The notes below the pieces were generated by a model that saw only the letters and a program-made list of their open reading frames with translations, was not told where the DNA came from and did no database searches. Source: Bordetella genomosp. 4 (GTDB lineage: Bacteria > Pseudomonadota > Gammaproteobacteria > Burkholderiales > Burkholderiaceae_B). Taken from it: a DNA stretch of 64,000 nucleotides. The DNA lies in assembly GCF_002261185.1 (NCBI RefSeq), contig NZ_NEVQ01000015.1:1-64000 (forward strand). The letters are read 5' to 3'. The position numbers were made by a program, and so were the translations under genes. Shown here piece by piece: positions 382-46,181 of this stretch (position 1 is the first letter of the stretch; each line of letters opens with the position of its first letter).

Positions 382-1239
382 TTACCCCTCGTACCTCTCC
401 CCCGCAGCCAACAATTCCGGCGTCCCAATCACCGCATTAAGCCCGTCAAAATCCAGCATCTGTTCGCGCCACGGCCCCGTACTGCCGTTCTGCCTCAGGC
501 TACCGTAATAACCCGCCAACGTATGCGCCACCGCCCGCGCGGTCCCGCCCGGAAAGATCACGATACGAAAACCCACGTCGGCTAATTCGGAGGCAGCTTT
601 GATCGGCGTCTTGCCCCCCTCGACCATATTGGCGAGCAACGGCACACGTCCCGCAAAGCGAGAACATGCTGCCTGCATCTGCTCAGGTGTACGCAGCGCC
701 TCGATAAACAGCGCATCAGCGCCGTCTTCCAGGTAGTGTTCGGCGCGATCCAACGCAGCGTCCAGGCCCTCGACAGCAATGGCGTCAGTGCGTGCGAGGA
801 TCAGCGTATCGGCGGTATGCCTCGCATCGACAGCGGCGCGCAATTTGCCGCGCATTTCGTTGACCGGCACCACCGTTTTACCGTCCAGATGACCGCAACG
901 CTTTGGGAAAGTCTGATCCTCGAGCTGGATCATCGCCGCCCCAGCGCGCTCGAAGCCGCGCACCGTGCGTTGCACATTCAGTGCATTTCCGAACCCCGTA
1001 TCCCCATCCACGATCACAGGCACCGACACACGCTCTGCGATACGGGCCAAAGTATCCTCGACTTCGGTATAGGTCGTCAGACCGACATCCGAACGCCCCA
1101 ATCGGGTATAGGCGATCGAAGCGCCCGAGAGATAGAGCGCATCGAACCCGGCCTGCTCCGCGATCAACGCTGACAAGGCGTCGTAAACGCCAGGCGCCAG
1201 AACGCAGCCCTGGGCCAGTTGTTGCGCAAGCTTTTTCAT
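382..1239 (-). CDS. Isocitrate lyase/PEP mutase superfamily lyase (2,3-dimethylmalate lyase-like)
   Basis: Predicted 285-residue TIM-barrel enzyme that cleaves or forms a C-C bond next to a carboxylate with Mg2+. Visible family features are the substrate-loop Ser in YLSGAS (about 38), the metal-binding DGDTGFGN (about 78-85), QLEDQ (about 105-109) and the isocitrate-lyase signature KRCGH with Cys115, which indicates lyase rather than mutase activity. GGAG lies 8 bases before the ATG. It is the last gene of the minus-strand array, 92 bases after the flavoprotein. Close families are methylisocitrate lyase, oxaloacetate decarboxylase and dimethylmalate lyase. The aconitase-type genes upstream make dimethylmalate-lyase-like chemistry attractive, but this is inference. 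Confidence 0.88.
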   Translation of the reverse strand: MKKLAQQLAQGCVLAPGVYDALSALIAEQAGFDALYLSGASIAYTRLGRSDVGLTTYTEVEDTLARIAERVSVPVIVDGDTGFGNALNVQRTVRGFERAGAAMIQLEDQTFPKRCGHLDGKTVVPVNEMRGKLRAAVDARHTADTLILARTDAIAVEGLDAALDRAEHYLEDGADALFIEALRTPEQMQAACSRFAGRVPLLANMVEGGKTPIKAASELADVGFRIVIFPGGTARAVAHTLAGYYGSLRQNGSTGPWREQMLDFDGLNAVIGTPELLAAGERYEG

Positions 1240-1331
1240 CCTTGTGACTCCGAGAAACTTCAGTAATTAGGCCAGGAACGTAAGGTATGACCCCGCACCT
1301 ATTGAATGGCCGATCTTTTCGTTGAGCAGCG

Positions 1332-2804
1332 CTATAGCGGCCGGCCCAGCAATTCTGCGGCTGTCGCCGCGGCGATATATCCCCCCGCCACGGCACTCAG
1401 CAGGCCGTTGCCGGAGAGATAGCCCGATACCTCATTCCCCGACACGCCGCGAGCAGCACCACCGGCAGCGAGCAAATTGGGAAAAACGTTGCCGTTCGTG
1501 TTCAACACTCGGCACTGCGCATCGATGTCCAACCCGCCTTGCGTATGGAATAACGCACCCGTCACCTTGATCGCGTAGTACGGCGCCTCGAGACGGCGCG
1601 TGAAACGCCGGCCGAACGCGTCAGCCAGATCGTGGGACACGGATGCCAGAGTAGCCGTCAGCGTTGTCTCGTCACAGCCGATGATATCCGCCAATGCCGC
1701 AGCATCAGCAGCACACCGCAATGCACCGCCCGCCTCCGCGTCCCGGAAATCGGGAAACTCGCGCAACAGCGCCAATGTGTGTGCGTCAAACACATTCCAT
1801 GCGACGCCTTCCGGTTGCGCCAATACGTGCACCGCGGCCTCGGAATACCCCTGCGTTTCGTCGTGAAAACGCTTTCCGGCACGATTGATCTGCACACCGC
1901 CATCCATGATGACTGCCCATGAAATCAACGCGCCCTGAGGAATCGCCCACGAGCCATGTCCCTGATAACCGCCCATATCGGCCAATCGCGCACCCAATTG
2001 CAGGCCCCATTGCACCGCACTGCCATCGTTGCCCACGTGTCCGCCGTACTCGGCGTCGGCCATTGCAGGCAGATATTCCCGGCGCATGGCGAGATTGCCG
2101 CCAAAACCATTGCAAGCGAGCAACAGCACATCGCAGCCGATCACCTCTCTGCCACCATCAGGCCGCTCGCACCCCACGGCCGTAATACGGCCATCGGCGT
2201 CGCACCATAATTCCCGGGCGATGGTATCGGTCAACAGATAGGCGCCGGCCTCAGTGGCCGTGTTGGTCAACGCACCAACCAAAGCCGCGCCTGTACGTTC
2301 CGGCAAGCTATGCATACGGCGCGCATGATGGCCGGGGTACAGAAAACCGTCCAGGACCTCAAACGTCAATCCCGCCTCTTGCAACGCGTCGATAGCCTGA
2401 GGAATCGCCTCGGTATAGGCCGTCACCAGATGAGGCGCCGCCTGGCCATGCGCCTTGGCACGAATGTCGGCCGCAAATTCGGCCGGGCTATCTGTCACCC
2501 CGGCAAGCTGTTGGGCACGCGTGCCCGCAGCCGGAATAAAGCCCGAGGACAGCGCGGTGGAGCCGCTGGGCACCGCGTCCCGCTCGATCAGCACGCATTC
2601 AATCCCGGCACGCCCCAATCGCCAGGCAGCCGTCAAACCGCAAGCGCCCGCGCCAATGATCACGACGGGCACCCGCTCACCAGCGGGGGCCGGCCCTCGG
2701 ATAACACGAGGACCATGCTCGTCTATAGGCACCGGATCTTGCGCAACACGGCGCAAATTATCGCTAGCTGACACTGGCTCCTGCGAGACGTGGCCTACAC
2801 TCAT
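1332..2804 (-). CDS. FAD-dependent oxidoreductase (fumarate reductase/ketosteroid dehydrogenase type)
   Basis: Predicted 490-residue flavoprotein of the FAD-binding-2 family, which oxidises or reduces C-C bonds next to carbonyls or carboxylates. It has a dinucleotide-binding GAGACGLTAAWRLGRAG near residue 50, an HTQGGLDID segment typical of the active-site half, and the C-terminal GGAARG...GYLSGNGLL FAD-contact region. The ATG at 2804 overlaps the stop of the isochorismatase-like gene as ATGA, so the two are translationally coupled; a longer open frame reaching 3215 only shadows that upstream gene. The first 45 or so residues are unusual and not obviously a signal peptide. Substrate unknown. 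Confidence 0.85.
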   Translation of the reverse strand: MSVGHVSQEPVSASDNLRRVAQDPVPIDEHGPRVIRGPAPAGERVPVVIIGAGACGLTAAWRLGRAGIECVLIERDAVPSGSTALSSGFIPAAGTRAQQLAGVTDSPAEFAADIRAKAHGQAAPHLVTAYTEAIPQAIDALQEAGLTFEVLDGFLYPGHHARRMHSLPERTGAALVGALTNTATEAGAYLLTDTIARELWCDADGRITAVGCERPDGGREVIGCDVLLLACNGFGGNLAMRREYLPAMADAEYGGHVGNDGSAVQWGLQLGARLADMGGYQGHGSWAIPQGALISWAVIMDGGVQINRAGKRFHDETQGYSEAAVHVLAQPEGVAWNVFDAHTLALLREFPDFRDAEAGGALRCAADAAALADIIGCDETTLTATLASVSHDLADAFGRRFTRRLEAPYYAIKVTGALFHTQGGLDIDAQCRVLNTNGNVFPNLLAAGGAARGVSGNEVSGYLSGNGLLSAVAGGYIAAATAAELLGRPL

Positions 2805-3397
2805 TTCGACAGACTCGCGATAAATTCCGCACACGTCGCAATGTCGGCCACCGTACGCAAATCCGCCAACGCCGCATCGTGCATCTCGGGTCTGGGCGCA
2901 GCACATCCATCGGCCAATACCGTCACGTGATAATCCCGCATGTGCGCATCGCGTGCCGTGCTGGCCACGCCGCCATTGGTGACAATGCCGCAGATGGCGA
3001 CATGGTCGATACCGGTGCGGCGCAGCACCCAATCCAGTTGGGTATTGAAAAACGCGGAATACGCGACTTTCCAGACCGACACATCGATGAGTCCATCCAA
3101 CTCGGCGACACAGCCATGACCGGGGCTGCCCGCGACAAAATCGCCGCGCTTTAAAAATGGACGCAGGCGGCGCAAGTGTGGCGAGATCATCGGCTCGCCC
3201 TGGGCATCCGGCCACAGCGTGAACTGGCTGGCTGCCACATACCCTCCGGCCGCTTTGACCGCCTGTGCGACAGGCGCCACGCGTGCAGGCAATGCACGAG
3301 CCTCGGGACTGACCGCGCCGCCGCGATCATAGGCGCCACCGGGCGTCAGAAAGTCGTTTTGCAGATCGACGACGATGAGTGCTGTTGAACGTGACAC
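2801..3397 (-). CDS. Isochorismatase-like family protein lacking the nucleophilic Cys
   Basis: Predicted 198-residue cysteine-hydrolase-fold protein. Asp11 (VVDLQNDF) and the Lys of VWKVAYSAF fit the family triad. In CGIVTNGGVASTARDA, however, the position that holds the catalytic Cys in amidohydrolases is Gly. True isochorismatases such as PhzD and EntB also lack this Cys, so a simple amidase role is doubtful. The start is GTG at 3397 with AAGGAG 6 bases upstream; longer frames extend into hydantoinase A. It lies 11 bases after hyuA and overlaps the flavoprotein gene by four bases. Confidence 0.85.
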   Translation of the reverse strand: MSRSTALIVVDLQNDFLTPGGAYDRGGAVSPEARALPARVAPVAQAVKAAGGYVAASQFTLWPDAQGEPMISPHLRRLRPFLKRGDFVAGSPGHGCVAELDGLIDVSVWKVAYSAFFNTQLDWVLRRTGIDHVAICGIVTNGGVASTARDAHMRDYHVTVLADGCAAPRPEMHDAALADLRTVADIATCAEFIASLSK

Positions 3398-3408
3398 GAG
3401 CGTGCTCC

Positions 3409-5457
3409 TTATTCCTGGCGCGAGATCAAGAGATTGCCCAAGGCGTCCACTTGTCCACGGAATCCCGGTTCCAGCCAGATGGTGGTGTCGGGTTGCTCCA
3501 GGATCGCAGGCCCATCCACGTGTGCGTCTATCGGCAGGGCGAGCCGCTCGTAACGCACCGCGTCCCACCATTGCCCGCCGTGGTAGACACGCTGCGTGCC
3601 CAGCGATGCGGGCATATCAGTCGCGGTCGGGGCCAACAAAGCCAAATCGAATTTGGGCCGCTGACCGATCCGTGCATAACGCAAGTTCAAGACACGGATC
3701 GCGATGCCAGCCAAGCTGCGGCCATATGCGCGGCGATATGCAGCCTCAAAAGCCGCGCCAATCGCAGCGCGATCCAGCGCCTCGCGCGAGACCTCAACGG
3801 TCACGGTGTGGCTCTGGCCTGCATACAGCATATCCAGTTCGATACTCTCGCGCACACCCTCGAATGCCATCCCTGCGGAATCCAGGCGCGCCTGGCATGC
3901 CTGGGCCAAGGCATCGATGCGTGCAACCAGCTCGTCGACGTTCAAGCCGTCCAGCGTCACGTTCAATGTCTGCACGCCGTCATGACGCATATCCGCCATC
4001 ACGCAACCCAATGCCGATGTCACGCCGGGAAAGCGAGGAATCAGTCCGCGCGTGCAGCCCACCTCGCGCATCATCGCGCAAACATGCAACGCGCCGCCGC
4101 CGCCGAAAGGCATGTAGGCGAACTTGCGCGGATCGTGGCCGCGTTCGATCGAAACCACACGAATCGCGCCAGCCATCTTGGCGTTTGCCACCGTCAGGAT
4201 GGCCTCGGCGGCCGCGTACGCGTCCAAGCCCAGCGGCTGCCCCACGTGCGTGTCGATCGCCGTGTGTGCCAATTCCGTATTCATTTGCGCCAACAGCCCG
4301 CCGCCCAGTGGGCGATCTGCAGCTATGCGGCCCAACAGAACATTGGCGTCCGTGACTGTAGGGCGCGTATTCCCGCGTCCGTAACAGGCCGGTCCGGGAA
4401 TGCTGCCGGCTGATTCCGGTCCGACTTGCAGCAAACCTCCTGCATCAACGCTGGCGATCGAGCCGCCGCCCGCGCCAATGGTCTCGATTTGAATCATCGG
4501 CGCACGAACCACCATGCCGAACTCAATCGACGTCTGCGCGGCCAGCGATGCTTCTCCGCCCGCGACCAACGAAACGTCAAACGACGTACCGCCCATGTCG
4601 CCGGTCACCACGTCCGGCAAACCGGCCGCACGCGCTATGGCTGCGCACGCAATCACGCCTGCCGCCGGTCCGGATAGCGCCGTACGCACCGGCACATCGC
4701 ACGCGGTTTGACGCGACATGACGCCGCCGTTGCTTTGCACCACCAATAGTTCACCTTCGAACCCGTGGCTTTTCAAATCGGTTTCCAGGCGCGAAAGATA
4801 GCTGCCTACGACGGGCTGCAACGATGCGTTCAAGGTCGCGGTCGAGCAACGTTCAAATTCGCGGATCTCGGGCAATACTTCGGTCGCAGCCGTGACATTG
4901 CTGTTTGGCCATATCTGGCGCACACGTGCGACGGCGGCTGCTTCGTTGGCGGGATTGGCGTAGGCGTTCACAAAGAACACACACACGGCCTCGCACCCCA
5001 AGGCCAGCAGTTCACGTGCCGCCGTCGCCACCTGGTCCAGATCGACCGGCGTGTGAATCGTCCCGTCAGCCAAAACCCGTTCGCTGACCTCGAAGCGCAA
5101 ATCGCGTGATACCACCGGCTCGTAGTTGCCACGCAAACCCCAGGTTTGCGGACGGTCACGGCGGCGCATCTCCAGTACGTCGCGGAATCCCTCGGTCGTG
5201 ATGATGCCCGTACGAGCGACTTTACGCTCCAGCAAGGCATTGGTGCCCACCGTCGTACCATGCACAATGGTCGCAATGGCATCAGCGCCGTCGGCCACAC
5301 GCTCGATGCCGTTCATGAAGCCCCGGGCTTCTTCGCCACGGGTCGAAGGAACTTTCACCACACGGGCGCTGCCGGCTTTTTCATCCAACACAAAAAGATC
5401 GGTAAACGTCCCACCGACATCCACCCCGACCACCAACGATTGCTGCGCGGCGCTCAT
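3409..5457 (-). CDS. hyuA: Hydantoinase/oxoprolinase family protein, subunit A
   Basis: Predicted 682-residue HyuA-type ATP-dependent subunit of N-methylhydantoinase, oxoprolinase or acetone-carboxylase-like enzymes. The actin-fold phosphate loop GVDVGGTFTDLFV is at the N-terminus (Hydant_A_N). A second ATPase segment, VTGDMGGTSFDVSLV, sits near the middle (Hydantoinase_A), and a typical C-terminal domain follows. Length is normal for the family. Its ATG overlaps the hyuB stop as ATGA, so the two subunits should be made together. Known members open cyclic amides or carboxylate ketones with ATP. The neighbouring enzymes favour ring opening of a lactam or imide, which remains inference. Confidence 0.9.
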   Translation of the reverse strand: MSAAQQSLVVGVDVGGTFTDLFVLDEKAGSARVVKVPSTRGEEARGFMNGIERVADGADAIATIVHGTTVGTNALLERKVARTGIITTEGFRDVLEMRRRDRPQTWGLRGNYEPVVSRDLRFEVSERVLADGTIHTPVDLDQVATAARELLALGCEAVCVFFVNAYANPANEAAAVARVRQIWPNSNVTAATEVLPEIREFERCSTATLNASLQPVVGSYLSRLETDLKSHGFEGELLVVQSNGGVMSRQTACDVPVRTALSGPAAGVIACAAIARAAGLPDVVTGDMGGTSFDVSLVAGGEASLAAQTSIEFGMVVRAPMIQIETIGAGGGSIASVDAGGLLQVGPESAGSIPGPACYGRGNTRPTVTDANVLLGRIAADRPLGGGLLAQMNTELAHTAIDTHVGQPLGLDAYAAAEAILTVANAKMAGAIRVVSIERGHDPRKFAYMPFGGGGALHVCAMMREVGCTRGLIPRFPGVTSALGCVMADMRHDGVQTLNVTLDGLNVDELVARIDALAQACQARLDSAGMAFEGVRESIELDMLYAGQSHTVTVEVSREALDRAAIGAAFEAAYRRAYGRSLAGIAIRVLNLRYARIGQRPKFDLALLAPTATDMPASLGTQRVYHGGQWWDAVRYERLALPIDAHVDGPAILEQPDTTIWLEPGFRGQVDALGNLLISRQE

Positions 5458-7124
5458 GCTGCCTGCTCCTGTTCTGCTTGACTGACATATCCCATTTTCT
5501 GGTCGCGCTCGCGAGCCTGTGCCGAACGGGCCTGAGGCGATCCGTAGCCGCCGCCTCCCGGCGTTTCCAGGCGCACACGTTCACCGCGTTTCAAGCGTAT
5601 GCCCAACATTTTTGAGGTCATGGGTGGGGTATGCCATTGCCCCTCGTTTTCGTACTTGAAGACGTTGGGAACGGCCGATGTCCCCCCTGCGATACCCTTC
5701 GGCGCGCTGCGCCCGCGTTCACCAAAGATAAACGCCTCGGCGCTGTCTTCCAGCAGCTCGATTTCGTAGATGGCGCCCAGGCCGCCGCGGTGCTGGCCGT
5801 CGCCGGCAGAGTCCGGACGCAAGGCCCATTGCGTAAAACGCACCGGATAGGCGGCCTCCAGGATTTCCAGCGGCGGTATGGTAGCTGTGGAAATCGGCGC
5901 ATTGCCATGCGACAAGCCATCGCCATCGCTGTGGCCGCCATGTCCGCCGCCAAAGAAACTGAACATCACCCAGCGCTGTCCCTTGCGCGCCTCGTCGCTG
6001 CGGTAACCGGCGATCGACAGCGCATTGATAGTGCCGTAAGCCTGAGCGGGCGCGCGTTCTGGTGCAGCCTGAGCCACCGCGCAGAAAATAACGTCGATCA
6101 TGCGCAAGATGGTTTCGGTATAACCGCCTACGGGCCGTGGACGTGCGGCCGAGATCAGCAAGCCATCGGGCAGCACCACGTCTACAGCGTCCAACACGCC
6201 TGCATTCGCCGGCACATCGGGGAACACATGCTTCAACGCCACATAGCAGGCCGCGATGGCCGTCGCGCGTGAAATGTTCACAGGCCCCGCGCAAGACGGC
6301 GAGGTCTCGGAAAAATCCAGGGTCAGTTTGTCCCCGGCTACCCGCAGCTTCAGCGCAATGGTAAGCGTCTCGTCGCGGACTCCATCGTTGTCCAGCGTAT
6401 CCGCAAAGGCATACTCGCCGTCCGGCAGGCGTTCTATGTGATCACGCATCAGACGCAGCGCCCGCAGGCGCAGGGTCTCCAATGCATCCTTGACCGTGCT
6501 GTCGCCGTACTCGCCCAGCAAGCCGTCCAGCCTCCCTGCTCCGAGTTCCAATGCAGCCAGCTGGCCGTTCAGATCGCCCCAGAGACTATCGGGCAGGCGT
6601 GTATTCGCTTTCAGGATGGCCAGCACGTCTGCGTCGAGCGTACCCCCACGCACGATACGTACGGGCGGAATCTGCACGGCCTCTTGCCAACACTCTGTCG
6701 CCGACGGGTTGTAGTTGCCAGGCACGGCGCCGCCGATGTCATGCCAGTGCGCGGCCGACGCCAGAAAACAAAACAGCTTGCCGTCACGGAAGACCGGGCG
6801 CACCAGCTTGAAATCGTTGGCATGAGTGCCGCCGTCATAGGGATCGTTGAACAGCCACACATCGCCATCGACCATCCCGCCGCGTTCGGCGGCGGCACGC
6901 GCAGCCGCCTGCACAGCAAAGGACATCGCGCCGACAAATACCGGTAAACCGGATTTTCCCTGCACCAGGGTCGCGCCCGACTCGGCGTCGTACAGGCCAT
7001 GGCATGCATCATGAGCCTCTGCGATGATGGGATTGAAGGCGCTGCGATACAGCGTCGCATCCATCTCATCGGCGATTTGTTCCAGCCGTCCCTTCAGGAC
7101 GGCCAAGGTCACGGGGTCAAGCAT
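5454..7124 (-). CDS. hyuB: Hydantoinase B/oxoprolinase family protein
   Basis: Predicted 556-residue HyuB partner of the downstream HyuA. Visible family features are the N-terminal LDPVTLAVLKGRLEQIADEM, the NDPYDGGTHANDF segment and the Gly-rich C-terminal TPGGGGYG. I chose the ATG at 7124 because most family members begin at this MLDPVT; an in-frame TTG at 7151 overlaps the end of the small hydratase subunit and would add nine residues. The upstream Shine-Dalgarno is weak, so translation may be coupled to the preceding gene. Together HyuA and HyuB should form a cytoplasmic ATP-dependent amidohydrolase or carboxylase. Confidence 0.9.
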   Translation of the reverse strand: MLDPVTLAVLKGRLEQIADEMDATLYRSAFNPIIAEAHDACHGLYDAESGATLVQGKSGLPVFVGAMSFAVQAAARAAAERGGMVDGDVWLFNDPYDGGTHANDFKLVRPVFRDGKLFCFLASAAHWHDIGGAVPGNYNPSATECWQEAVQIPPVRIVRGGTLDADVLAILKANTRLPDSLWGDLNGQLAALELGAGRLDGLLGEYGDSTVKDALETLRLRALRLMRDHIERLPDGEYAFADTLDNDGVRDETLTIALKLRVAGDKLTLDFSETSPSCAGPVNISRATAIAACYVALKHVFPDVPANAGVLDAVDVVLPDGLLISAARPRPVGGYTETILRMIDVIFCAVAQAAPERAPAQAYGTINALSIAGYRSDEARKGQRWVMFSFFGGGHGGHSDGDGLSHGNAPISTATIPPLEILEAAYPVRFTQWALRPDSAGDGQHRGGLGAIYEIELLEDSAEAFIFGERGRSAPKGIAGGTSAVPNVFKYENEGQWHTPPMTSKMLGIRLKRGERVRLETPGGGGYGSPQARSAQARERDQKMGYVSQAEQEQAA

Positions 7125-7147
7125 GATTCGATTCCAGTTTGTCGTGA

Positions 7148-7630
7148 TCAAGACGGCCGGCTGCGCGTCTTCAGTAGGTTCAAAAGACCGCCCGCGCGCA
7201 CCATATCCAGCAGAAAATCCGGCACGGGTTCACAGGTCAGCGTCTGGCCTTGTTCGTTGCGGACGAGGCCATGATCCAGGTCTAACGTCACCTGCTCGCC
7301 CTCGGCCAATTGCTCGGCCTGCGCGCACGTCAACAGCAATAGCCCCACATTGAAGGCATTGCGGAAAAACAAGCCGCTGAATGACGGTGCTATCACCGCC
7401 GCTACGCCCAAATGCACCAGCGCCGCGGCCGCCTGCTCGCGCGAGGATCCAATGCCAAAATTAGGCCCGGCGACCAAGACATCTCCGCGTTGTACCGCCG
7501 ATGCAAAATCGGGCCGCACCCGTTGCAGGCAGTGACGTGCGATCTCGTCGATGCCGAATTTCATATAGGCGCCAGGCGCCAGGGCGTCGGTGTCGATATC
7601 CTCACCGACACGCCATACGCGTGCGCTCAT
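7148..7630 (-). CDS. Aconitase-family small (swivel) subunit, LeuD-like
   Basis: Predicted 160-residue swivel domain of a two-subunit hydro-lyase. The hallmark GPNFGIGSSREQAAAALVHLG is present, followed by APSFSGLFFRNAFNVG, which in LeuD and homoaconitase contacts substrate. AGGAG precedes the ATG by 6 bases. It follows the large subunit by 67 bases. Isopropylmalate isomerase, homoaconitase, citraconate hydratase and dimethylmaleate hydratase (DmdB) share this architecture. The catabolic setting, with no leuA or leuB nearby, argues against leucine biosynthesis. Confidence 0.88.
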   Translation of the reverse strand: MSARVWRVGEDIDTDALAPGAYMKFGIDEIARHCLQRVRPDFASAVQRGDVLVAGPNFGIGSSREQAAAALVHLGVAAVIAPSFSGLFFRNAFNVGLLLLTCAQAEQLAEGEQVTLDLDHGLVRNEQGQTLTCEPVPDFLLDMVRAGGLLNLLKTRSRPS

Positions 7631-7697
7631 TGGATTCTCCTGCTATGCGTCACTGTGGGCAGGCACAGGGGTTCATGCACGTCAAGGTATCGCATCA

Positions 7698-8963
7698 TCA
7701 CTGCATCACCTCACGCGGGTCGATAATGCGGCCCGCCACGGCGGCAGCTGCCACACTGTACGGCGAGCCTAAATACACCTGTGCGGACTCCGAGCCCATG
7801 CGGCCTTTGAAATTGCGGGCCGTGCTGGAAATCACCGTGGCGCCATCCGGGATCGAGCCGCCGTAGCCGGCACACGCGCCACATGTGGTCGGCAATACTT
7901 GGGCCCCGGCGTCGGTCAACACTTGCATGACGCCCTCCTGTGTCGCGGCAGCTTGGTCTTTCATGCTGGCTGGCGCGACAATCAGGCGCATGCCATCGGC
8001 CAGACGCTTGCCGCGCAACACTCTCGCAGCGGCTCGCAGGTCCTCCAGTTTGGCGCCGGTACATGCGCCGATATACGCCGCCTGCACCGCAATATCGCGA
8101 TAGCTGCCCGCATCGCGCGCATTGGCAGGGCTATGCGGGGCCGCCACCTGCGGGGCCAATGCACTGGCATCAAAGTCATACCATTCGGCATCGCAGCCCT
8201 CATCGCTGTGCCAACGCTGCACGTCGAGCGGCTCGGTCACACCGACCTCGCGCAACCAGGCTGCAGTCGTCTCGTCCGGTGCCACCAGCCCGACTTGCGA
8301 TCCGAGCTCCGCACTCATATTGGAGAGGGTCATGCGCTCCGGCATGGACAGAGCCCGGACTGCCTCGCCGCAGAACTCCACCGCCTGATACTGTCCACCG
8401 TTCATGCCATAGCGGCCAATCAGATGCAGCATCATGTCCTTGGCCGTCACGCCGTCGGCCAGGCGGCCGTTCCAACGCATCATCAGCGTCCGTGGCACCT
8501 TGACCCAGATCTGCCCCGTGACAACCACGCCCAGCATTTCGGTACTGCCCACGCCGAACATATACGCGCCAAACGCCCCACCGGTCGGCGAATGCGAATC
8601 CCCGCCGACACAGAACATGCCGGGGCGCAAATGACCGCCCTGCGGCACCACGACATGGCAGATGCCCTGGCTGTCATAGACGTGCGGCAAGCGCTCACTG
8701 CGCGCCCAATCCCGCGCAATACGCACGATGCGGCGCGATTCGTCGTCCGATTCCGGCACATAGTGATCGATCACCAGCACCACTTTGTCGCGGTCCCAGA
8801 TTGTCGCGCCCAACTCGCGCAACATGGGCTCCAGCCGGCGCGGGCCGCTGGAATCGTGAAACATCGCCAGATCCACGGAGCACGTCACGATCTCGCCTTC
8901 GGCGACCGTATCGCGACCGCTCGCGGCAGCGATCAGTTTTTGTGCCAGGGTCTGTTTCATCAT
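7698..8963 (-). CDS. Aconitase-family large subunit, LeuC-like (dimethylmaleate/isopropylmalate hydratase type)
   Basis: Predicted 421-residue catalytic subunit that adds or removes water on a dicarboxylate with a [4Fe-4S] cluster. Cluster ligands are visible as Cys301 (IGACTG) and Cys361/Cys364 (TTCGACAG), and GGDSHSPTGGAFG (about 120-132) is the family signature. Its start overlaps the importer ATPase stop (TAATG arrangement) with GGGGA just upstream; ATG at 8960 is an equally possible start. It pairs with the small subunit downstream. The nearby lyase suggests that the hydrated product, a substituted malate, is cleaved next. Confidence 0.9.
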   Translation of the reverse strand: MMKQTLAQKLIAAASGRDTVAEGEIVTCSVDLAMFHDSSGPRRLEPMLRELGATIWDRDKVVLVIDHYVPESDDESRRIVRIARDWARSERLPHVYDSQGICHVVVPQGGHLRPGMFCVGGDSHSPTGGAFGAYMFGVGSTEMLGVVVTGQIWVKVPRTLMMRWNGRLADGVTAKDMMLHLIGRYGMNGGQYQAVEFCGEAVRALSMPERMTLSNMSAELGSQVGLVAPDETTAAWLREVGVTEPLDVQRWHSDEGCDAEWYDFDASALAPQVAAPHSPANARDAGSYRDIAVQAAYIGACTGAKLEDLRAAARVLRGKRLADGMRLIVAPASMKDQAAATQEGVMQVLTDAGAQVLPTTCGACAGYGGSIPDGATVISSTARNFKGRMGSESAQVYLGSPYSVAAAAVAGRIIDPREVMQ

Positions 8964-9673
8964 TACATCCCCAAATATGCCCGGCGCACATCATCGCTGG
9001 CCATCAACTCTGCACAGCCGCCGCTATGGCGAATGGCGCCGTCTTCCAGGACATAGGCCCGCTGCCCGACCTCGAGCGATTGGCCCACGTTCTGCTCGAC
9101 CAACAGGATCGATAAACCGTCTTCGTGCAAACGGCTGATCAAACCGAACATTTCTTCGACCATCAGCGGCGACAGGCCCAACGAGGGTTCGTCCAGAATC
9201 AGCAAGCGCGGCTCGGCCATCAAACCGCGTCCGATCGCCAGCATCTGCTGTTCGCCGCCGGACATCGTTCCCGCGAACTGCGTCAGACGCTCGCCCAGAC
9301 GGGGAAAAATCGTCAACACGCGATCCAGATTGGCGGCACGCCGCTCACGCGCCCGCGTGAAAGAGCCCAATTCCAGATTCTCGCGCACACTCAGATTGGG
9401 AAATACCCGGCGCCCCTCCGGCACTTGAATCAGGCCAGCCTTTACGACCTCGCGGTAATGCTTGCCCGTCAAGTTCTGCCCATCAAAACGCACCTGGCCT
9501 TCCCAGGGTCGATAGATGCCGCATAAGGTGTTGTTCAGCGTGGACTTGCCTGCGCCATTACTGCCCAGCAGCACGACAATCTCGCCTTGTTCGACGTGCA
9601 GATCGACGCCGCGCAGGACCTCCATACGGCCATAGCCAGCTCGCAGGCCGCTGACTTCCAGTAACGCGCTCAT
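8963..9673 (-). CDS. HAAT ABC transporter ATP-binding protein, LivF type
   Basis: Predicted 236-residue ATPase of a branched-chain-amino-acid/amide importer. Walker A is GSNGAGKST, the signature is MSGGEQQMLAIGRGL, Walker B is LLILDEPSLGLSP, and VEQNVGQSL is the switch region typical of LivF. It overlaps the LivG-type gene by ATGA and the hydratase gene at its stop, placing transport and catabolism in one transcript. HAAT systems carry many carboxylates and amides, so the substrate cannot be read from sequence. Confidence 0.92.
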   Translation of the reverse strand: MSALLEVSGLRAGYGRMEVLRGVDLHVEQGEIVVLLGSNGAGKSTLNNTLCGIYRPWEGQVRFDGQNLTGKHYREVVKAGLIQVPEGRRVFPNLSVRENLELGSFTRARERRAANLDRVLTIFPRLGERLTQFAGTMSGGEQQMLAIGRGLMAEPRLLILDEPSLGLSPLMVEEMFGLISRLHEDGLSILLVEQNVGQSLEVGQRAYVLEDGAIRHSGGCAELMASDDVRRAYLGM

Positions 9674-10425
9674 GCCCGCACCTCCATCGCCGCGATGCGC
9701 GCGGCCGCGCCATGGCCGAGATAGGCCTCGACCACCGCCGGGTCACGCGTGACCGCCGACGGCGTGCCATCGGCAATCAATCGCCCCTGCGCCAATACCC
9801 ATACATGTTCTGCCAGGCTCATGACGGCACGCATCACGTGTTCGATCATCAAGACAGTGATGCCATCTGCCGTCAACTGACGCACGACGGGAATCATCTC
9901 GTCGATCTCAGCTGGATTCAGTCCGGCCAGCACTTCGTCGAGCAATAACAAACGAGGCTGCGTGGCCAAGGCCCGGGCCAGTTCCAAGCGCTTGCGGCCC
10001 GCCACGGTCAGATCGGCCGCGGGCTTATCCAATTGGCGATGCAGATTCACCCGTCTCGCAATGACCTCGGCAGCCTCCAGCGCCTGCGCGCGATTGGCGA
10101 GGCGCAAATGCGCGCCTACCGCTATGTTCTGCCGCACCGTCTGCGCGCCAAAGGGCTGCACCACCTGGAAGGTGCGAGTCAGCCCCAACTTTGCCGAGCG
10201 TTGGGGCGCCATCCCCGTAATGTCCGTCCCGTCAAAGACGACACGCCCTTGTTGCGCACGCAAAAAACCGGACAACAAACCGAATAGCGTCGTTTTGCCA
10301 GCGCCATTGGGCCCAACCAGTGCGGTCAAGCTGCCGCGCGGCACGGCCAGGCTCACATCCTGTACCGCTTTTACCCCGCCAAACGTAATCGAGAGATTCT
10401 CTGCCTGAAGCAAGATATCAGCCAT
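9670..10425 (-). CDS. HAAT ABC transporter ATP-binding protein, LivG type
   Basis: Predicted 251-residue second ATPase of the importer. Walker A is GPNGAGKTT. The usual LSGGQQ signature is replaced by LTVAGRKRLELARAL, a variant seen in many LivG proteins. Walker B is LLLLDEVLAGLNP, with Val where many members have Pro, and the H-loop is MIEHVM. The start overlaps the permease stop by eight bases, and the end overlaps the LivF-type start as ATGA. The LivG and LivF proteins should form the heterodimeric motor on the cytoplasmic face. Confidence 0.9.
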   Translation of the reverse strand: MADILLQAENLSITFGGVKAVQDVSLAVPRGSLTALVGPNGAGKTTLFGLLSGFLRAQQGRVVFDGTDITGMAPQRSAKLGLTRTFQVVQPFGAQTVRQNIAVGAHLRLANRAQALEAAEVIARRVNLHRQLDKPAADLTVAGRKRLELARALATQPRLLLLDEVLAGLNPAEIDEMIPVVRQLTADGITVLMIEHVMRAVMSLAEHVWVLAQGRLIADGTPSAVTRDPAVVEAYLGHGAAARIAAMEVRA

Positions 10426-11386
10426 GGCTACGCCCCTTTTGACTAAACAGGCGCATCACTGGCTGGCCATAGCCCGATAATCCGCGCGGCGCAAACATGA
10501 CGATCACAATCAAGACGACGCCATAAATCACCATGCTGATACCTGGCAACTCGCCGAACAAATTGCGCGTAAAGTCCGCCAATACATGCAGCGCCACCGC
10601 GCCTGCAATCGGCCCCCACAAGGTACCAATGCCGCCGACAATCGCTCCCACCAGCGCCTCGACCGATACCGCGGGCCCGAACGCGATCGACGGATCGATG
10701 TACTGAAATACCTGCACGTAGAACGCGCCTGCCGCGCTCATGAAGGCCGCCGAGATCGCAATACCCTTGAGCTTGATGTTCAACGGGTCTACGCCGATGG
10801 CACGTGCCGCATCCTCGTTATCTCGCACGGCTTGCAGATACGCGCCGAAACGCGAATGCCGCAGCCACGCCGTCACCGCCAACGCCAACACCACGAACGC
10901 CAAGATCAAATAGATATAGCCGTGACGCGAGGCAAACTGCATATTGGCCACGCCCTCTTTCAACGGCACCATCAAGCCTACACCGCCGCCCGTGAACGAC
11001 ACGGACCCCGCGACGATGCGAAACACCTCGGCAAAGGCCAACGTCACCAGCGCAAAATAGGAACCACGCAAGCCATAGCGAAAGGTCAGCGCCCCCACCG
11101 CCAGCCCCACCAGCGCGCCGCAGACGATTGCTATCGGCAACACCATCCACGGGTTGAGACCCCAGTTCAGTTGCCCTAATGCCTGCGCATAGGCCCCAAC
11201 GCCAAAAAACAGGGCGTGACCAAACGACAACTGACCGCCATAGCCGCCCAGGATATTCCAGGCCTGAGCCAGCAACGCCGCATACAGCGACATCATGATG
11301 AACGTCAGCCATACGCCGGACTGGACGAACATCGTCGCCACAGCCACCGCCAGGGCGAAAATCAGGATCGCGTAAAAATCCTTCAT
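10418..11386 (-). CDS. HAAT ABC transporter permease, LivM type
   Basis: Predicted 322-residue inner-membrane permease with many hydrophobic helices. The conserved segments GGYGGQLSFGHALFFGVGAY (about 50-70) and GLRGSYFALVTLAFAEVFR mark the LivM branch. The ATG at 11386 lies two bases after the LivH-type stop and has GAGGG upstream. A longer frame to 11785 only shadows the LivH-type gene and was discarded. It should form the membrane channel with the LivH-type subunit. Confidence 0.9.
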   Translation of the reverse strand: MKDFYAILIFALAVAVATMFVQSGVWLTFIMMSLYAALLAQAWNILGGYGGQLSFGHALFFGVGAYAQALGQLNWGLNPWMVLPIAIVCGALVGLAVGALTFRYGLRGSYFALVTLAFAEVFRIVAGSVSFTGGGVGLMVPLKEGVANMQFASRHGYIYLILAFVVLALAVTAWLRHSRFGAYLQAVRDNEDAARAIGVDPLNIKLKGIAISAAFMSAAGAFYVQVFQYIDPSIAFGPAVSVEALVGAIVGGIGTLWGPIAGAVALHVLADFTRNLFGELPGISMVIYGVVLIVIVMFAPRGLSGYGQPVMRLFSQKGRSHG

Positions 11387-11388
11387 GG

Positions 11389-12264
11389 TCAGGCCCTCGC
11401 CCCAAACAGCCCCTGCGGGCGAAACAGCAACACGAGAATAAAGATCGCAAAGATGCCCATCTGGCCCAACGAATCTCCCAGAAACAAGCCACCCAACGAT
11501 TCCACCACGCCGATCAGCAAACCGCCGACCAAGGCGCCGGCAAAGCTGCCCATACCGCCCAGCACCACGATGGTGAAGGCGATCAGCACAAAGCCGCTGC
11601 CCACCTGCGGATTGACGTAATACGCCGGCAATAGAAAACAGGCTGCAGCGCCCAGGCAGGCCATGCCTATCGCAAACGACAAGGCGTAGACGCGCTCTAC
11701 GTCTATACCCATCAGTTTGGCGCCCTGTTTTTCCTTGGCCACGGCGCGTATTGCGCGACCCAGATCCGTGCGGCGGATCACCCACAGCAGCACGGCCGCC
11801 ACTACCATCGCCCCCGCAAAGGCGATGAGTTTGGGCAATGCGATCAAAGCCGGCCCGATCTCCACCGTGGACAGGGTATAGGCCGTATCAATACTGCGCG
11901 TATCCGATTTGAACCACACCAGCGCCAGGTTCTCGAGCACGATCGAGAGACCCAAGGTAACTAAAAGAATATTCTCGTCCTTGCCGTGGCTGGCGCGGCT
12001 GATGATGACGCGCTGCAGGAAATATCCCAGCACAAACATGCCCGCCATCACGAACGGCAGCGCCATATAGGGATCCAGCCCCAGACGCTCTTTCAGCAGA
12101 TAGACAGCGTACAACGCCACCATCAGGGCAGCGCCGTGCGCGAAATTGATGATGTGCAAGACGCCGTAAATCAGCGTCAGGCCCAACGCTACCAACGCGT
12201 ACACCGCGCCCGTGGTCAGGCCGTTGAGCACGGCAGACAATAGAATGGCAGGATCCCACAACAT
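11389..12264 (-). CDS. HAAT ABC transporter permease, LivH type
   Basis: Predicted 291-residue inner-membrane permease. It has the LivH-type N-terminus (LNGLTTGAVYALVALGLTLIYGV, with HIINFAHGAALM following) and the coupling-helix region around ERVYALSFAIGMACLGAAA. The ATG follows the binding-protein stop by three bases, with AAAGG upstream. Length and helix spacing are normal. Partner of the LivM-type permease. Confidence 0.92.
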   Translation of the reverse strand: MLWDPAILLSAVLNGLTTGAVYALVALGLTLIYGVLHIINFAHGAALMVALYAVYLLKERLGLDPYMALPFVMAGMFVLGYFLQRVIISRASHGKDENILLVTLGLSIVLENLALVWFKSDTRSIDTAYTLSTVEIGPALIALPKLIAFAGAMVVAAVLLWVIRRTDLGRAIRAVAKEKQGAKLMGIDVERVYALSFAIGMACLGAAACFLLPAYYVNPQVGSGFVLIAFTIVVLGGMGSFAGALVGGLLIGVVESLGGLFLGDSLGQMGIFAIFILVLLFRPQGLFGARA

Positions 12265-12267
12265 CGT

Positions 12268-13473
12268 TCAGGCCTTTACCGGAAACTGCGCGTTGGCCTG
12301 ACGATATGCCTCCGGGATAATGACCTTGATATCACCATCGATCACCTGTGTCAGCAGGGGCTGGGCTCCCGTATTCTGGCCGTTCACGAATTTCGTCGGG
12401 CCATATGGCATCAGATGGTCCGAGAACGTGCTGCTGGCCAATGCATCGGTAATCGCCGCCCGATCCGTGGATTTGGCGCGCTCGATCGCGTCGACCAACA
12501 AGTAGACGCTGACATAGGTCATAAAGACCTCGTAGCTGAAGTATGCGCCCTTCTCCTCGACGCGGGCCTTCAAGGGCGCGACGCGTGCGTCCTTGGGATT
12601 GAACCAGTGATTGCAATCAATGATCCCGTTGGCCACGTCCGGGAATTCTTTCAGGAATTTATAGCTCGACGCCGCGCCGCCCAATACGGAATAAATCGCC
12701 TTCGGGCTCACCTTCTGCTGCTTCATCGCACGCAATAGCAAGGCGTACTCGTTGTAGTAGTTCGCCGGAATCACGATGTCCGGATTCACCGAGCGCATGC
12801 GCAGCACGATATTGTTGAAGTCCCGCGTGGGGTTCGGGTGTTTGACGACCTCTTTCACCTCGAAGCCATGCTCTGGCAGAGCCTTGGACAACAACGCCGC
12901 CGTCCCCGTACCGAACAACGAGTCTTCGTGCACGATCATCACGGTCTTTGCCGGTTTGCCTGCCGCATCGTTCAGCGCCACCAGATCAGTGATCGCGCGC
13001 TCGGTGCATGTACGATAGCCTGGCCCAAAACGGAAGGTGTTATTCAGGCCGCGCTCGACGATCTGATCCGCCACACCGACATCAACCACGTGAGGCAGTC
13101 CATACTTGGCCGCCGTCTGCGTCGTCGCCAGACAGATGGCGGACGCGTAGGCGCCCACAATTGCCGACACGCCGGCGGCGTTCATCTTTTCCACCTCGGC
13201 AGAGCCTGCCTCGGGACGCGATTGCGCATCGCCCAGCAGAGCCTCGATCTTTGCACCGCCCAACGCCTTGATGCCGCCGGCCTTGTTGATGTCTTCGATG
13301 GCCAGCAGAGCCCCCAGACGGCATTGCTGTCCCGAATACGCCAACGCGCCCGTCACCGGATGCAGAACGCCGACTTTCACCGGCGTGGCGGAGTGGGCGC
13401 GCACCACCCAGGGTGCGGATAACACAGCAGCCGCGGCGGCGGACTGCGTCAAAAAAGTACGGCGCGTCGTCAT
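12268..13473 (-). CDS. HAAT ABC transporter substrate-binding protein
   Basis: Predicted 401-residue periplasmic binding protein (peripla_BP_6 fold). The N-terminus has RRTFLTQ followed by an Ala-rich hydrophobic stretch and a cleavage region near WVVRAHS, so Tat export is plausible. The mature start (TPVKVGVLHPVTGALAYSGQQ) is typical of amide/branched-chain binding proteins. CGGAG precedes the ATG. It is the first transport gene, 20 bases after the GntR regulator, and should set the specificity of the whole locus; the ligand is unknown. Confidence 0.92.
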   Translation of the reverse strand: MTTRRTFLTQSAAAAAVLSAPWVVRAHSATPVKVGVLHPVTGALAYSGQQCRLGALLAIEDINKAGGIKALGGAKIEALLGDAQSRPEAGSAEVEKMNAAGVSAIVGAYASAICLATTQTAAKYGLPHVVDVGVADQIVERGLNNTFRFGPGYRTCTERAITDLVALNDAAGKPAKTVMIVHEDSLFGTGTAALLSKALPEHGFEVKEVVKHPNPTRDFNNIVLRMRSVNPDIVIPANYYNEYALLLRAMKQQKVSPKAIYSVLGGAASSYKFLKEFPDVANGIIDCNHWFNPKDARVAPLKARVEEKGAYFSYEVFMTYVSVYLLVDAIERAKSTDRAAITDALASSTFSDHLMPYGPTKFVNGQNTGAQPLLTQVIDGDIKVIIPEAYRQANAQFPVKA

Positions 13474-13493
13474 GGCAAAACTCCGAAAGAGAC

Positions 13494-14303
13494 TTAATGA
13501 AATTGGGCCGAGAGCTCTTCGCTGACCCAGACTTTGGCGTCGATGTCCCCGACGCGCGACAGCTGTAATTGATATTGATAGCGATCCGGACGGTACAAAC
13601 CATGCAGCAACTGCACCGGACGATCATTCACATCACGCACCAAGCGAACCACCGACAGCAACGCCGATCCCACCGCTACATCCAAATGGCGGCCGATCTG
13701 CGCATCTGCCAAGCGGGCGCCGATTGTCTGCGTAGCCCCGCCGAACTCGACGCCTGCCGCCTCCAGCAACATCAACAGCGGCTGACGTTCCAGATCCGCA
13801 CGGCTGAAATTCGCCACGGCTTGCGGTACGTAGGTGGTGATATGGGATAAAGGCCCCGCCTCGGTACTGCGCACGCGCAGGCTTTTGTGGACGGGCGTAC
13901 CCACCGGGATTTCCAGGGAATCGGCCACTGCTGGCGAGGCATTGACCAACTCGCTGTCCAGCACGTGCACCGACGTGCGCAAACCCATGTTGACGATGTT
14001 TTCCATCAGCCCCACCAGATGGGCCTTTTGGCGCGGGCGCTTTGTCGCACTGCCGGCATCACGCGCACTGTCGGCGGGCGCATGCCGTGTCGGCCACGTC
14101 CCCAATCCTGGGCGGCGCGACACGAGTCCATCGGCCACCAGCATCTCCATTGCCTTGCGAACGGTGATGCGTGCCACCTCGAACTGCGTGGCCAAGGCGA
14201 GTTCGCCCGGCACGCCGTCCTGATCGAAACGCCCTTCTTGCAACTGTTCGCGCAAGACGAGGTAGATCTGGTGATATTTCGGTAGCGGTAAGGAGGTTCC
14301 CAT
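13494..14303 (-). CDS. GntR family transcriptional regulator with UTRA domain
   Basis: Predicted 269-residue regulator: N-terminal winged helix-turn-helix (GELALATQFEVARITVRKAMEMLVADGLVSRRPG, about 35-70) and a C-terminal UTRA/chorismate-lyase-like ligand domain. It heads the minus-strand catabolic array and probably senses its substrate. I chose ATG 14303; a TTG at 14309 would add two residues, and neither has a good Shine-Dalgarno. A perfect inverted repeat covers the start codon, which suggests autoregulation. Confidence 0.88.
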   Translation of the reverse strand: MGTSLPLPKYHQIYLVLREQLQEGRFDQDGVPGELALATQFEVARITVRKAMEMLVADGLVSRRPGLGTWPTRHAPADSARDAGSATKRPRQKAHLVGLMENIVNMGLRTSVHVLDSELVNASPAVADSLEIPVGTPVHKSLRVRSTEAGPLSHITTYVPQAVANFSRADLERQPLLMLLEAAGVEFGGATQTIGARLADAQIGRHLDVAVGSALLSVVRLVRDVNDRPVQLLHGLYRPDRYQYQLQLSRVGDIDAKVWVSEELSAQFH

Positions 14304-27125: not shown

Positions 27126-27758
27126 TCATCGCTCACGCTCGCGCCAGACATCATATTCCGGCACCACCATCTCAAAATGCCCTCGCGTGGTGGTGTAAAG
27201 TCGGCCAAACATCCGCCCGATCGGATGATATTTCTCGGGATCGATATATTTGAGATCTGCATCGAACAGGCCTTCGCGCACATGCATGCGCACGACCTCG
27301 CCCAGGGTGATATGCCGATGCGGATTGATCTCGATCATCGCAATCTTGCGGCACTCAAAAGCAACGGGCGCCTCTGCGATGCGTTGAGGCTGAACTATGC
27401 TGGATGGCACCAACGTTAAACCCGCCGCGGTTGCTTCGCAGATATCGCTGGGAAAATCGATCGCGCACACATTCATCGCCTGCGCGAGCGCCTCATCGAC
27501 CAGATGCACGACAAACTCGCCGGTCGCGCGAATGTTGATCGTCGTGTCCTTCAACGCACCGCTGCCGCGTTTATCCTCCAGGCCGATCGCCATCACCGGA
27601 GGGGCCTCGCCCATGACATTGAAAAAACTGAACGGCGCCGTATTGTGGCCGGTCTCCTCGGAATACGTAGAGATCAGCGCGATAGGCCGTGGCACCACCG
27701 TCGACGACAACAAGCGATACTGATCTGCGGGAGGTAGAGCCTGAATATCAATGTCCAT
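27126..27758 (-). CDS. Flavin reductase family protein
   Basis: Predicted 210-residue FMN-binding split-barrel protein. The N-terminal QYRLLSSTVVPRPIALISTYSEETGHNTAPFSFFNVMG pattern matches the DIM6/NTAB flavin reductase group. Members reduce FMN with NAD(P)H for a partner monooxygenase or act as flavin-dependent enzymes themselves. AGGACAAAT precedes the ATG. It is the last gene of the minus-strand catabolic unit, 91 bases after the deacetylase-like gene; no obvious monooxygenase partner is adjacent. Confidence 0.85.
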   Translation of the reverse strand: MDIDIQALPPADQYRLLSSTVVPRPIALISTYSEETGHNTAPFSFFNVMGEAPPVMAIGLEDKRGSGALKDTTINIRATGEFVVHLVDEALAQAMNVCAIDFPSDICEATAAGLTLVPSSIVQPQRIAEAPVAFECRKIAMIEINPHRHITLGEVVRMHVREGLFDADLKYIDPEKYHPIGRMFGRLYTTTRGHFEMVVPEYDVWRERER

Positions 27759-27849
27759 ATTTGTCCTGTTTTGCTACAGCGCACGATGCCAGACACTACC
27801 CATTTCCGTGCATCCCTGCAAACATCCAATCGCTTGGCTGTGCCCTTAT

Positions 27850-28746: not shown

Positions 28747-28769
28747 GGTGAGATCCTTTCGATCAGAAT

Positions 28770-29591: not shown

Positions 29592-29661
29592 GTCGAATCT
29601 CCAGAATTACGATGCTGCGTGATAGGAATAAGGCGCGGCACAAACATCGCGCCTGCCGTTG

Positions 29662-30432: not shown

Positions 30433-30434
30433 CG

Positions 30435-32870: not shown

Positions 32871-32916
32871 GGTTCCCTCTACTCGGATAGTGCTTCGCCC
32901 GCCGATGGGCAAGGAT

Positions 32917-33783: not shown

Positions 33784-33877
33784 CGGCGGATCTCACTAGG
33801 TCGGACGACTGGATGCCGGGCGCCACCGTTCCGAGCGGTCAAGCGGCGCGCGAGTACGACGTCATTGCAGGAATGGC

Positions 33878-35047: not shown

Positions 35048-35167
35048 GCGCGTTCCCCTTGAACAATTTGATTTGACTTGCCTCAGCTTGTTGTAGTGAT
35101 CTTCCTCGTGTCGATATGCCTTCCTGAAAGTGTCCACCGCACGTTTCAAGTCCCCGGCGCGCCGCCG

Positions 35168-36574: not shown

Positions 36575-36777
36575 GAGCAACTCCTCGCCTGCATCGGAGG
36601 CCACACCTCGGCCTTCACATCGTCGAGCGCAAACAAGACGTTGCGCAGCTGCATCGCCGACTGAACCGCGGCCAGCAGATCCTGTTCAAAGGTGCCTACG
36701 ATTTCATCCAGGCCCGCATCGCGCGCCATCAGCAGATACAAGGGGTTGACCCGACTGGCCGCACCGGACGACGCCAT
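36571..36777 (-). CDS. Small amidase-partner protein (AtzG/HpxX/GatC-like candidate)
   Basis: Predicted 68-residue protein ending in a GTGA overlap with the amidase start. It is mostly helical with a Pro-containing acidic tail (VLFALDDVKAEVWPPM) reminiscent of DUF4089/AtzG and GatC subunits, which stabilise their amidases and shape the active site. GGGA lies about 9 bases before the ATG. Similarity is judged only from size, pattern and position, so the family assignment is tentative, but the gene itself looks real. Confidence 0.6.
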   Translation of the reverse strand: MASSGAASRVNPLYLLMARDAGLDEIVGTFEQDLLAAVQSAMQLRNVLFALDDVKAEVWPPMQARSCS

Positions 36778-42229: not shown

Positions 42230-42250
42230 CGACGAAGTAGTGGCGAACTG

Positions 42251-43255: not shown

Positions 43256-43261
43256 TTGCCG

Positions 43262-44323: not shown

Positions 44324-44330
44324 TTCGACT

Positions 44331-46174: not shown

Positions 46175-46181
46175 ACTCGTA

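Follow-up and report, generated by a model that had tools for sequence, protein, structure and literature searches.

The first 64,000 nucleotides of contig NZ_NEVQ01000015.1 of Bordetella genomosp. 4 (the window), a genome of 5.5 Mb, begin with 13 consecutive minus-strand genes, spanning positions 14303 down to 382, which encode a GntR-type regulator, a HAAT-type transporter with four Liv components, a LeuC/LeuD-like hydratase (LeuCD), the hydantoinase-family subunits HyuA and HyuB (HyuAB), an isochorismatase-fold protein (ISO), a flavoprotein (FLV), and a C–C lyase of the ICL/PEP-mutase superfamily (LYA). Judging from the neighbourhoods of these genes in other genomes, the 13-gene operon is almost certainly one catabolic unit. 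From the protein families involved we further propose, at a probability of roughly 55%, that this unit mediates the substrate-inducible catabolism of a substituted five-membered cyclic imide, by way of an alkylmalate, to pyruvate. As a tentative candidate for the substrate, we put forward hematinic acid (3-methyl-4-(2-carboxyethyl)maleimide, an oxidation product of the tetrapyrroles haem, bilins, and chlorophyll) or its dihydro form, which would be carried to pyruvate and glutarate.

The nine non-Liv proteins were scanned with Pfam and NCBIfam profiles, which agree on the families, whereas the assignments of the four Liv genes come from tblastn comparison with annotated relatives at loci L138 and L140 rather than from a hidden Markov model scan of their own. 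The 12 gene junctions are overlaps of 1 to 8 bases or gaps of 2 to 92 bases. Coordinates and typing (Table 1) thus bear out the 13 same-strand, closely packed genes and the families listed for them in the initial annotation.

Conservation of the gene set

To follow the gene set across genomes, we drew on two samples, comprising 125 loci together: the best 80 HyuB loci, among at least 427 candidates encoding a relative, from a scan in which each species was represented by one genome, and 45 HyuB loci from 248 genomes of the family to which Marivita lacus belongs, taken here to be Rhodobacteraceae. HyuA, ISO, LYA, and a LeuC-type hydratase are all present at 68 of the best 80 loci, with FLV in addition at 65, and a HAAT transporter is present at 59. 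In the Marivita family, the frequency of HyuB orthologues (45/248 genomes) illustrates how common the operon is; 39 of the 45 loci hold HyuA, ISO, LYA, and the hydratase, and 30 hold FLV too. Among the 125 loci, each one that has HyuA, ISO, and LYA and lacks the hydratase is truncated by a contig end; many of the incomplete loci among the best 80 are short or cut, with L050, L098, and L107 being neither. Within the order, a HyuB orthologue (E ≤ 1e-150) was found in 4 of 300 genomes, that of the window included, and was always clustered with LeuCD.

The gene set recurs with its order mostly kept in Achromobacter (L100 being Achromobacter sp. Root83), Paraburkholderia, Limnohabitans, Variovorax, Polaromonas, and several alphaproteobacterial groups. 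The transporter (HAAT, TctC receptors, or TRAP) and the gene order vary among loci, and the hydratase can switch to the LeuC466 type in some of them, while the enzymes remain together. Conservation across so many groups excludes a chance grouping, and since 68/80 and 39/45 loci keep the enzymes side by side, the genes that had been grouped as one pathway do not split into unrelated units.

Enzyme families and a candidate route

We then considered which reaction each enzyme might catalyze, beginning with the hydratase and the lyase. LeuC passes the cut-offs of two broad families (NF001614, 517 bits against 385; TIGR01343, 406 bits against 386), and LeuD is placed in the LeuD/DmdB family of small subunits (TIGR02087, 174 bits against 109). 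Both fail the leucine equivalogs (TIGR02084 for leuD, 132 against 246; TIGR00170 for leuC, 242 against 560) as well as the homoaconitase equivalogs HacB and HacA (147 against 230 and 350 against 550, respectively). The hydratase resembles the methanogen-type homoaconitase in subunit subfamily and possibly in a basic residue of the small-subunit loop (Lys24, see below), but it falls below the homoaconitase cut-offs. Similarly, LYA shares with PrpB, the methylisocitrate lyase, the superfamily, the KRCGH loop, and the expected product pyruvate, but it scores 288 bits with TIGR02317, under the PrpB cut-off of 354, and a true PrpB (424 bits) is encoded elsewhere in the genome (C6:17734-18588). In a tree of 28 lyases (14 of the roughly 78 available from operon or LeuC-LeuD-LYA trio loci, and 14 others), the 14 operon and trio lyases fall into a single fork with 100/100 support, which is separate from PrpB and from the petal death protein. 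This fork comprises 18 rows and also includes the lyases of L137, L139, and L151 and a paralogue of the same genome linked to a TauD gene on contig C11; since these four come from different gene contexts, four changes of the operon label are required on the tree. The lyases of L145, L146, and L150 lie outside. Taken together, cut-offs and tree agree with the earlier expectation that hydratase and lyase are not leucine or methylcitrate enzymes.

For the opening of the ring, HyuA and HyuB carry the full Hydantoinase_A and Hydantoinase_B domains, as do caprolactamase, 5-oxoprolinase, and N-methylhydantoinase. Unlike in caprolactamase, the scores with the caprolactamase models (HyuA with the alpha model NF050156, 509 bits; HyuB with the beta model NF050157, 283 bits) are far under the cut-offs of 1000, and the neighbours are a hydratase and a lyase. 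Besides ring opening, a carboxylase role was considered for HyuAB. In some relatives, the place of HyuAB is taken by a PuuE-family pair (PuuE1 and PuuE2) together with ISO2, a different protein of the isochorismatase fold. Orthologues of PuuE1 (E ≤ 1e-90) were found in 9 of 399 genomes of the order, with PuuE2 and ISO2 alongside in all nine. Five PuuE clusters are tightly joined to LeuC and/or a lyase of the operon clade (L025, L031-L033, and L151), looser ones have LYA (L147) or LeuC466 (L148) about 10 kb off, and the PuuE locus L149 is a 4.6-kb contig. No HyuAB was seen within the 18 kb of L151, which holds LeuC466, LeuD, TRAP, LYA, ISO2, PuuE1/2, and FLV, and at L135, a Burkholderia plantarii plasmid, PuuE2-PuuE1-ISO2 is divergent from GntR-LeuC-LeuD-FLV-LYA. 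PuuE-like genes also flank complete HyuAB clusters (L082 and L173) and adjoin L050.

According to the available excerpts, the PuuE family includes the imidase HxnM (PMC9304392) and a homologue of the P. putida cyclic imide hydrolase (PMC3084791). Ring opening, hydration, and retro-aldol cleavage fit together as a single route, as initially proposed. The replacement of HyuAB by a family that contains imide hydrolases lends indirect support to the opening of an imide, but the same family also has allantoinase. Imide opening followed by amide removal is likewise attributed to HxnM/HxnN of Aspergillus nidulans in the accessible part of PMC9304392, and relatives of the operon carry PuuE and ISO2; the ring there is six-membered, whereas the operon has HyuAB and a Cys-less ISO, presumably followed by hydration and retro-aldol cleavage.

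Bacterial cyclic imide pathways combine an imidase with a half-amidase, and ISO is our candidate for the latter. It keeps Asp11 and Lys110 in all 79 distinct rows, with Gly143 at the aligned place of the RutB Cys in 79/79. The Asp-Lys-Cys triad on which the cysteine amidases of this fold (RutB, nicotinamidase, and maleamate amidase) rely for catalysis is therefore incomplete in ISO, so that the protein belongs to the family named in the initial annotation but is not a standard amidase. Dialkylmaleamic acids self-hydrolyse rapidly, and it is tempting to speculate that the cis carboxylate of a dialkylmaleamate substitutes for the missing Cys. ISO2 keeps the Cys in 10 of 10 rows, and the isochorismatase-fold protein of L137 has Ala.

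FLV, which had been described as a fumarate-reductase-type flavoprotein, does belong to the FAD_binding_2 family and aligns with urocanate and fumarate reductases, but it scores only 212 bits with TIGR01813 (cut-off 285), and Tyr320 and Tyr462 replace two of their arginines. Arginines at the dicarboxylate site of fumarate reductase and succinate dehydrogenase flavoproteins bind and protonate the dicarboxylate; FLV lacks them, and its Tyr320, His420, and Tyr462 are kept in 78/78 distinct rows. Active-site tyrosines are a feature of ketosteroid dehydrogenases. At the otherwise complete loci L096, L140, L166, L178, L180, L182, L188-L191, and L195, no FLV match was seen in the DNA examined, and L045 has only a short fragment. 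We read FLV as a possible, optional ring desaturase.

On these family assignments, the HAAT transporter would import the cyclic imide, and FLV would, when needed, desaturate a saturated ring from succinimide to maleimide. HyuAB would open the ring with ATP to a maleamate, ISO would free ammonia from this half-amide (speculatively with the neighbouring cis carboxylate as the nucleophile), and LeuCD would hydrate the resulting alkylmaleate to an alkylmalate, which LYA would split by retro-aldol cleavage into pyruvate and a carboxylic acid, most likely glutarate. With hematinic acid as the substrate, the intermediate that is formed, hydrated, and cleaved to pyruvate and glutarate would be methyl-homoaconitate.

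The pairing of a heterodimeric LeuD/DmdB-family hydratase with a lyase of the ICL/PEP-mutase superfamily is shared with Eubacterium barkeri, in which nicotinate fermentation uses DmdAB and Dml. The operon differs from DmdAB/Dml in its HyuAB ring opening and in the glutarate genes linked to it in some relatives, and no nicotinate-fermentation enzyme was found among the nine operon proteins scanned, the other four being parts of the Liv transporter.

Hematinic acid as a possible substrate, and the alternatives

The clue to the substrate comes from genes of glutarate metabolism. Glutaryl-CoA dehydrogenase (GcdH) genes lie inside or against the cluster in three lineages. At L135, GcdH stands in the cluster with flanking ETF genes and a CaiB-family transferase; it aligns at 735 bits to a solved GcdH, compared with 584 to 4w9u (named only as an acyl-CoA dehydrogenase) and at most 237 to other non-GcdH chains. 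At L110, L117, and L153, GcdH and a CaiB-type transferase directly follow FLV, as does GcdH at L152, where the DNA examined ends. At L031-L033, GcdH lies beside ISO2-PuuE1-PuuE2 and LeuCD, and at L084 about 1 kb from GntR. The best model for the CaiB-type transferases is succinate--glutarate CoA-transferase (542 and 532 bits, cut-off 750). A search for GcdH in 31 of the 80 genomes gave one copy in 28, two in 2, and none in 1, and in the L110 genome the copy in the cluster is the sole GcdH. By a hand estimate, the chance of finding a GcdH gene within a 20-kb flank in a genome of about 5 Mb is about 0.4% per locus. A cluster-linked GcdH fits hematinic acid, whose eight carbons would divide into pyruvate and glutarate (3 + 5); read backwards, pyruvate and glutarate lead to methyl-homoaconitate and thence to hematinic acid. 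The linked genes thus suggest a substrate with an extra carboxylate, and on this point depart from the alkylated imide or lactam that had been expected to pass through a DmdAB/Dml-like dialkylmaleate.

A further, weak hint of such a carboxylate is Lys24 of LeuD, which is kept in 82/84 rows and aligns with Arg26 of the methanogen homoaconitase 2pkp and with Val of the isopropylmalate (IPM)/citramalate isomerase 3vba. The small-subunit loop holding this position determines specificity, according to the portion of PMC7308503 available. As to occurrence in nature, hematinic acid is reported from leaves in the accessible text of PMC7318184, which also cites lake sediments for hematinic acid and maleimides; in that study itself, so far as this text goes, maleimides went undetected.

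Several observations weigh against the imide route or against hematinic acid as its substrate. Every enzymatic step is proposed from family membership, and ISO is without the Cys of the known amidases of its family. The best model for PuuE1 and PuuE2 is the allantoinase PuuE (142 and 128 bits against a cut-off of 425), and therefore the exchange of HyuAB for PuuE is compatible with both ureides and imides. The lyase of the loose PuuE cluster L150 lies outside the operon fork, and no LYA was seen at L031-L033 in the DNA examined. GcdH is near only a minority of loci (3 of 80 in the GTDB set and 3 of 45 in the Marivita family); the two sets have one genome in common, and the loci in question are close relatives; the NCBIfam glutaryl-CoA dehydrogenase model gives 208 bits against a cut-off of 470 and leaves the protein unnamed. 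The other LeuD of the genome, presumably the leucine enzyme, has Lys at the position of Lys24, and of five LeuC466-type partners compared, four have Lys there too (the fifth, at L134, has Ser), which weakens this hint and lowers the odds of hematinic acid. Arg235 of LYA was considered as proof of an extra carboxylate, being present in 78/78 rows where the petal death protein has Tyr, and was dropped: paralogues in the same genome share it, so that it discriminates little. The dimethylmalate lyase 3fa3 was not among the five structures shown aligned with LYA. Finally, LeuC-LeuD-LYA stands without orthologous HyuAB at L021-L023, L026, and L027 (L022 has a distant HyuBA pair, 33-40% identical, 8 kb away), and because TctC receptors flank it there, the trio may also serve acids that are imported directly; conversely, HyuBA occurs without the remaining genes at L098 and L107 and without LYA and LeuC at L050.

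We weighed these findings against four other explanations. The same route could act on a dialkyl imide whose side chains bear no carboxylate (dimethyl- or ethylmethyl-maleimide or -succinimide), close to DmdAB/Dml of Eubacterium, and yield pyruvate with propionate or butyrate. LeuD is indeed in the LeuD/DmdB family, the NMVEGGKTP motif of LYA corresponds to NMIEGGKTP in the petal death protein, which acts on alkylmalates, and Lys24 is not decisive; such a substrate would, however, leave the glutarate genes in three lineages unexplained, and we regard it as rather unlikely. A hydantoin or another cyclic ureide appears quite unlikely. Here, HyuAB or PuuE would produce an N-carbamoyl compound from which ISO or ISO2 removes the carbamoyl group, leaving the product to the remaining enzymes. 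Hydantoinases do belong to the HyuAB family, PuuE1/2 have an allantoinase as their best model, ISO2 has a TSGCV motif, the family list includes N-carbamoylsarcosine amidohydrolase, and Asp/Glu-racemase-type genes are found at L139 and L144. However, if the product were an amino acid, an ammonia lyase or transaminase would have to act ahead of LeuCD, none being present among the nine non-Liv proteins scanned, and ISO lacks the Cys.

A third explanation is a pyrrolinone-type lactam, which HyuAB would open and whose ring FLV would oxidize, with ISO using acid catalysis on an enamine or enol ether in the manner of true isochorismatases. In its favour, the Cys-less ISO retains Asp and Lys, Cys-less isochorismatases act on vinyl ethers, and caprolactamase provides the closest NCBIfam models for HyuAB. 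We nevertheless consider it improbable, as the substrates of LeuCD and LYA would be expected to carry two vicinal carboxylates; an imide provides these directly, a lactam does not. Two unrelated modules that happen to adjoin, one for an amide or imide (HyuAB-ISO-FLV) and one for an acid (LeuCD-LYA), are very improbable, as each part is found without the other at the loci named above but both are kept together at the large majority of loci in both samples despite differing gene orders and transporters.

If the hematinic acid reading of the imide route were correct, the operon would turn hematinic acid into pyruvate, glutarate, and ammonia, and would be the first dedicated pathway for this compound, with an ATP-dependent imidase and a half-amidase that is assisted by its substrate and lacks the cysteine, ISO being the candidate for such an amidase. 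It would also offer lake, soil, and marine bacteria a widespread route for completing tetrapyrrole breakdown and give a function to genes annotated as hydantoinase, 3-isopropylmalate dehydratase, cysteine hydrolase, and isocitrate lyase/PEP mutase family protein. Among the matches listed from open-licence papers, we found neither a published description of this operon nor an assignment for how bacteria consume the final ring remnants of haem and chlorophyll.

Gene layout, related lyases, and neighbouring genes

Table 1. Genes of the operon in the window, listed in the direction of transcription
Feature	Position	Strand	Basis
GntR/UTRA transcriptional regulator, probable substrate-responsive repressor	13494..14303	-	PF00392, PF07702; recurs beside cluster in relatives
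HAAT-type periplasmic binding protein	12268..13473	-	PF13458 Peripla_BP_6
LivH-type permease	11389..12264	-	tblastn to annotated branched-chain ABC permeases, L138 and L140
LivM-type permease, start ATG 11386	10418..11386	-	tblastn to L138 and L140
LivG-type ATPase	9670..10425	-	tblastn to L138 and L140
LivF-type ATPase	8963..9673	-	tblastn to L138 and L140
LeuC-like hydratase large subunit (aconitase superfamily, archaeal-type IPMI/homoaconitase subfamily)	7698..8963	-	NF001614, TIGR01343
LeuD/DmdB-family hydratase small subunit, substrate-loop Lys24	7148..7630	-	TIGR02087
HyuB, putative ATP-dependent lactam/imide hydrolase subunit	5454..7151	-	PF02538, 551 bits
HyuA, putative ATP-dependent lactam/imide hydrolase subunit	3409..5457	-	PF05378, PF01968, PF19278
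ISO, isochorismatase-fold protein without catalytic Cys (Asp11, Lys110, Gly143)	2801..3397	-	PF00857
FLV, FAD flavoprotein (FAD_binding_2; flavocytochrome c/ketosteroid-dehydrogenase-like)	1332..2804	-	PF00890
LYA, ICL/PEP-mutase superfamily C-C lyase, KRCGH loop	382..1239	-	PF13714

HyuB has two candidate start codons, TTG at 7151 and ATG at 7124. A promoter scan returned four sites against a shuffled mean of 5.5, and the one that precedes GntR (14340-14312) proves nothing; terminator-like sites numbered 24 against 12.9, with the majority falling within genes.

Lyases in or near the operon fork also occur beside other enzymes. The paralogue on contig C11 (locus L040, about 37.6-39.6 kb, 68% identity to LYA) directly follows what by eye looks like a TauD/TfdA dioxygenase, near a TctC-like protein, and a TauD-TctC-lyase row is annotated at L136, whose lyase shows 70% identity. 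L137 (Variovorax sp. RA8 plasmid 2) combines its lyase with LeuCD, the isochorismatase-fold protein, an LLM monooxygenase, a flavin reductase, and a RibBA-like gene, a set that recalls Rut-like oxidative ring opening. Unlike the operon, these loci have a TauD dioxygenase (L136 and C11) or the LLM monooxygenase and flavin reductase (L137) instead of HyuAB, and a TauD/TfdA-type dioxygenase could produce an alkylmalate directly. The Variovorax WS11 isoprene paper was rejected as a precedent, since in the portion of it available the dml gene belongs to a methylcitrate cluster. On a Halomarina sp. BND7 plasmid (L145), a haloarchaeal relative of the lyase (48%) lies beside annotated TcuA, MmgE/PrpD, and acyl-CoA dehydrogenase genes. 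LYA-like proteins (E ≤ 1e-60) were found in 76 PLSDB plasmid records (L134 and L135, for example), with an identity of at least 60% in 28; of the 76 plasmids, 5 are typed as conjugative, and all 40 among the matches listed exceed 140 kb, and the pathway may be partly mobile.

Elsewhere in the window, an iron-uptake island (41273-49730) holds FecBCDE-like ABC genes, an aldo/keto-reductase-like protein, a TonB siderophore receptor, and a FecR-like regulator. A link of these genes to haem was considered and rejected, as the receptor passes the siderophore cut-off and fails that for haem. A second HAAT operon lies at 27126-36604 on the minus strand and encodes an AtzE-like amidase, a binding protein, LivHMGF-like and SDR-like genes, a PhyH dioxygenase, a PuuE-family protein, and a flavin-reductase-like protein. 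Its PuuE-like product shares 52% identity with the one encoded beside the HyuAB cluster of L050, and its PhyH product shares 43% identity with a protein encoded about 5 kb away from the operon at L140; the second HAAT operon possibly encodes another imide, ureide, or lactam pathway.

In relatives, an MmgE/PrpD-family protein is encoded in or beside the cluster at L024, L025, L078, L085, L095, L107, L139, L142, and L144. Furthermore, a tautomerase-family protein whose C-terminal part is extended adjoins the operon at 10 of the 80 and 33 of the 45 loci, which are alphaproteobacterial and fall among L093-L122 and L152-L196.

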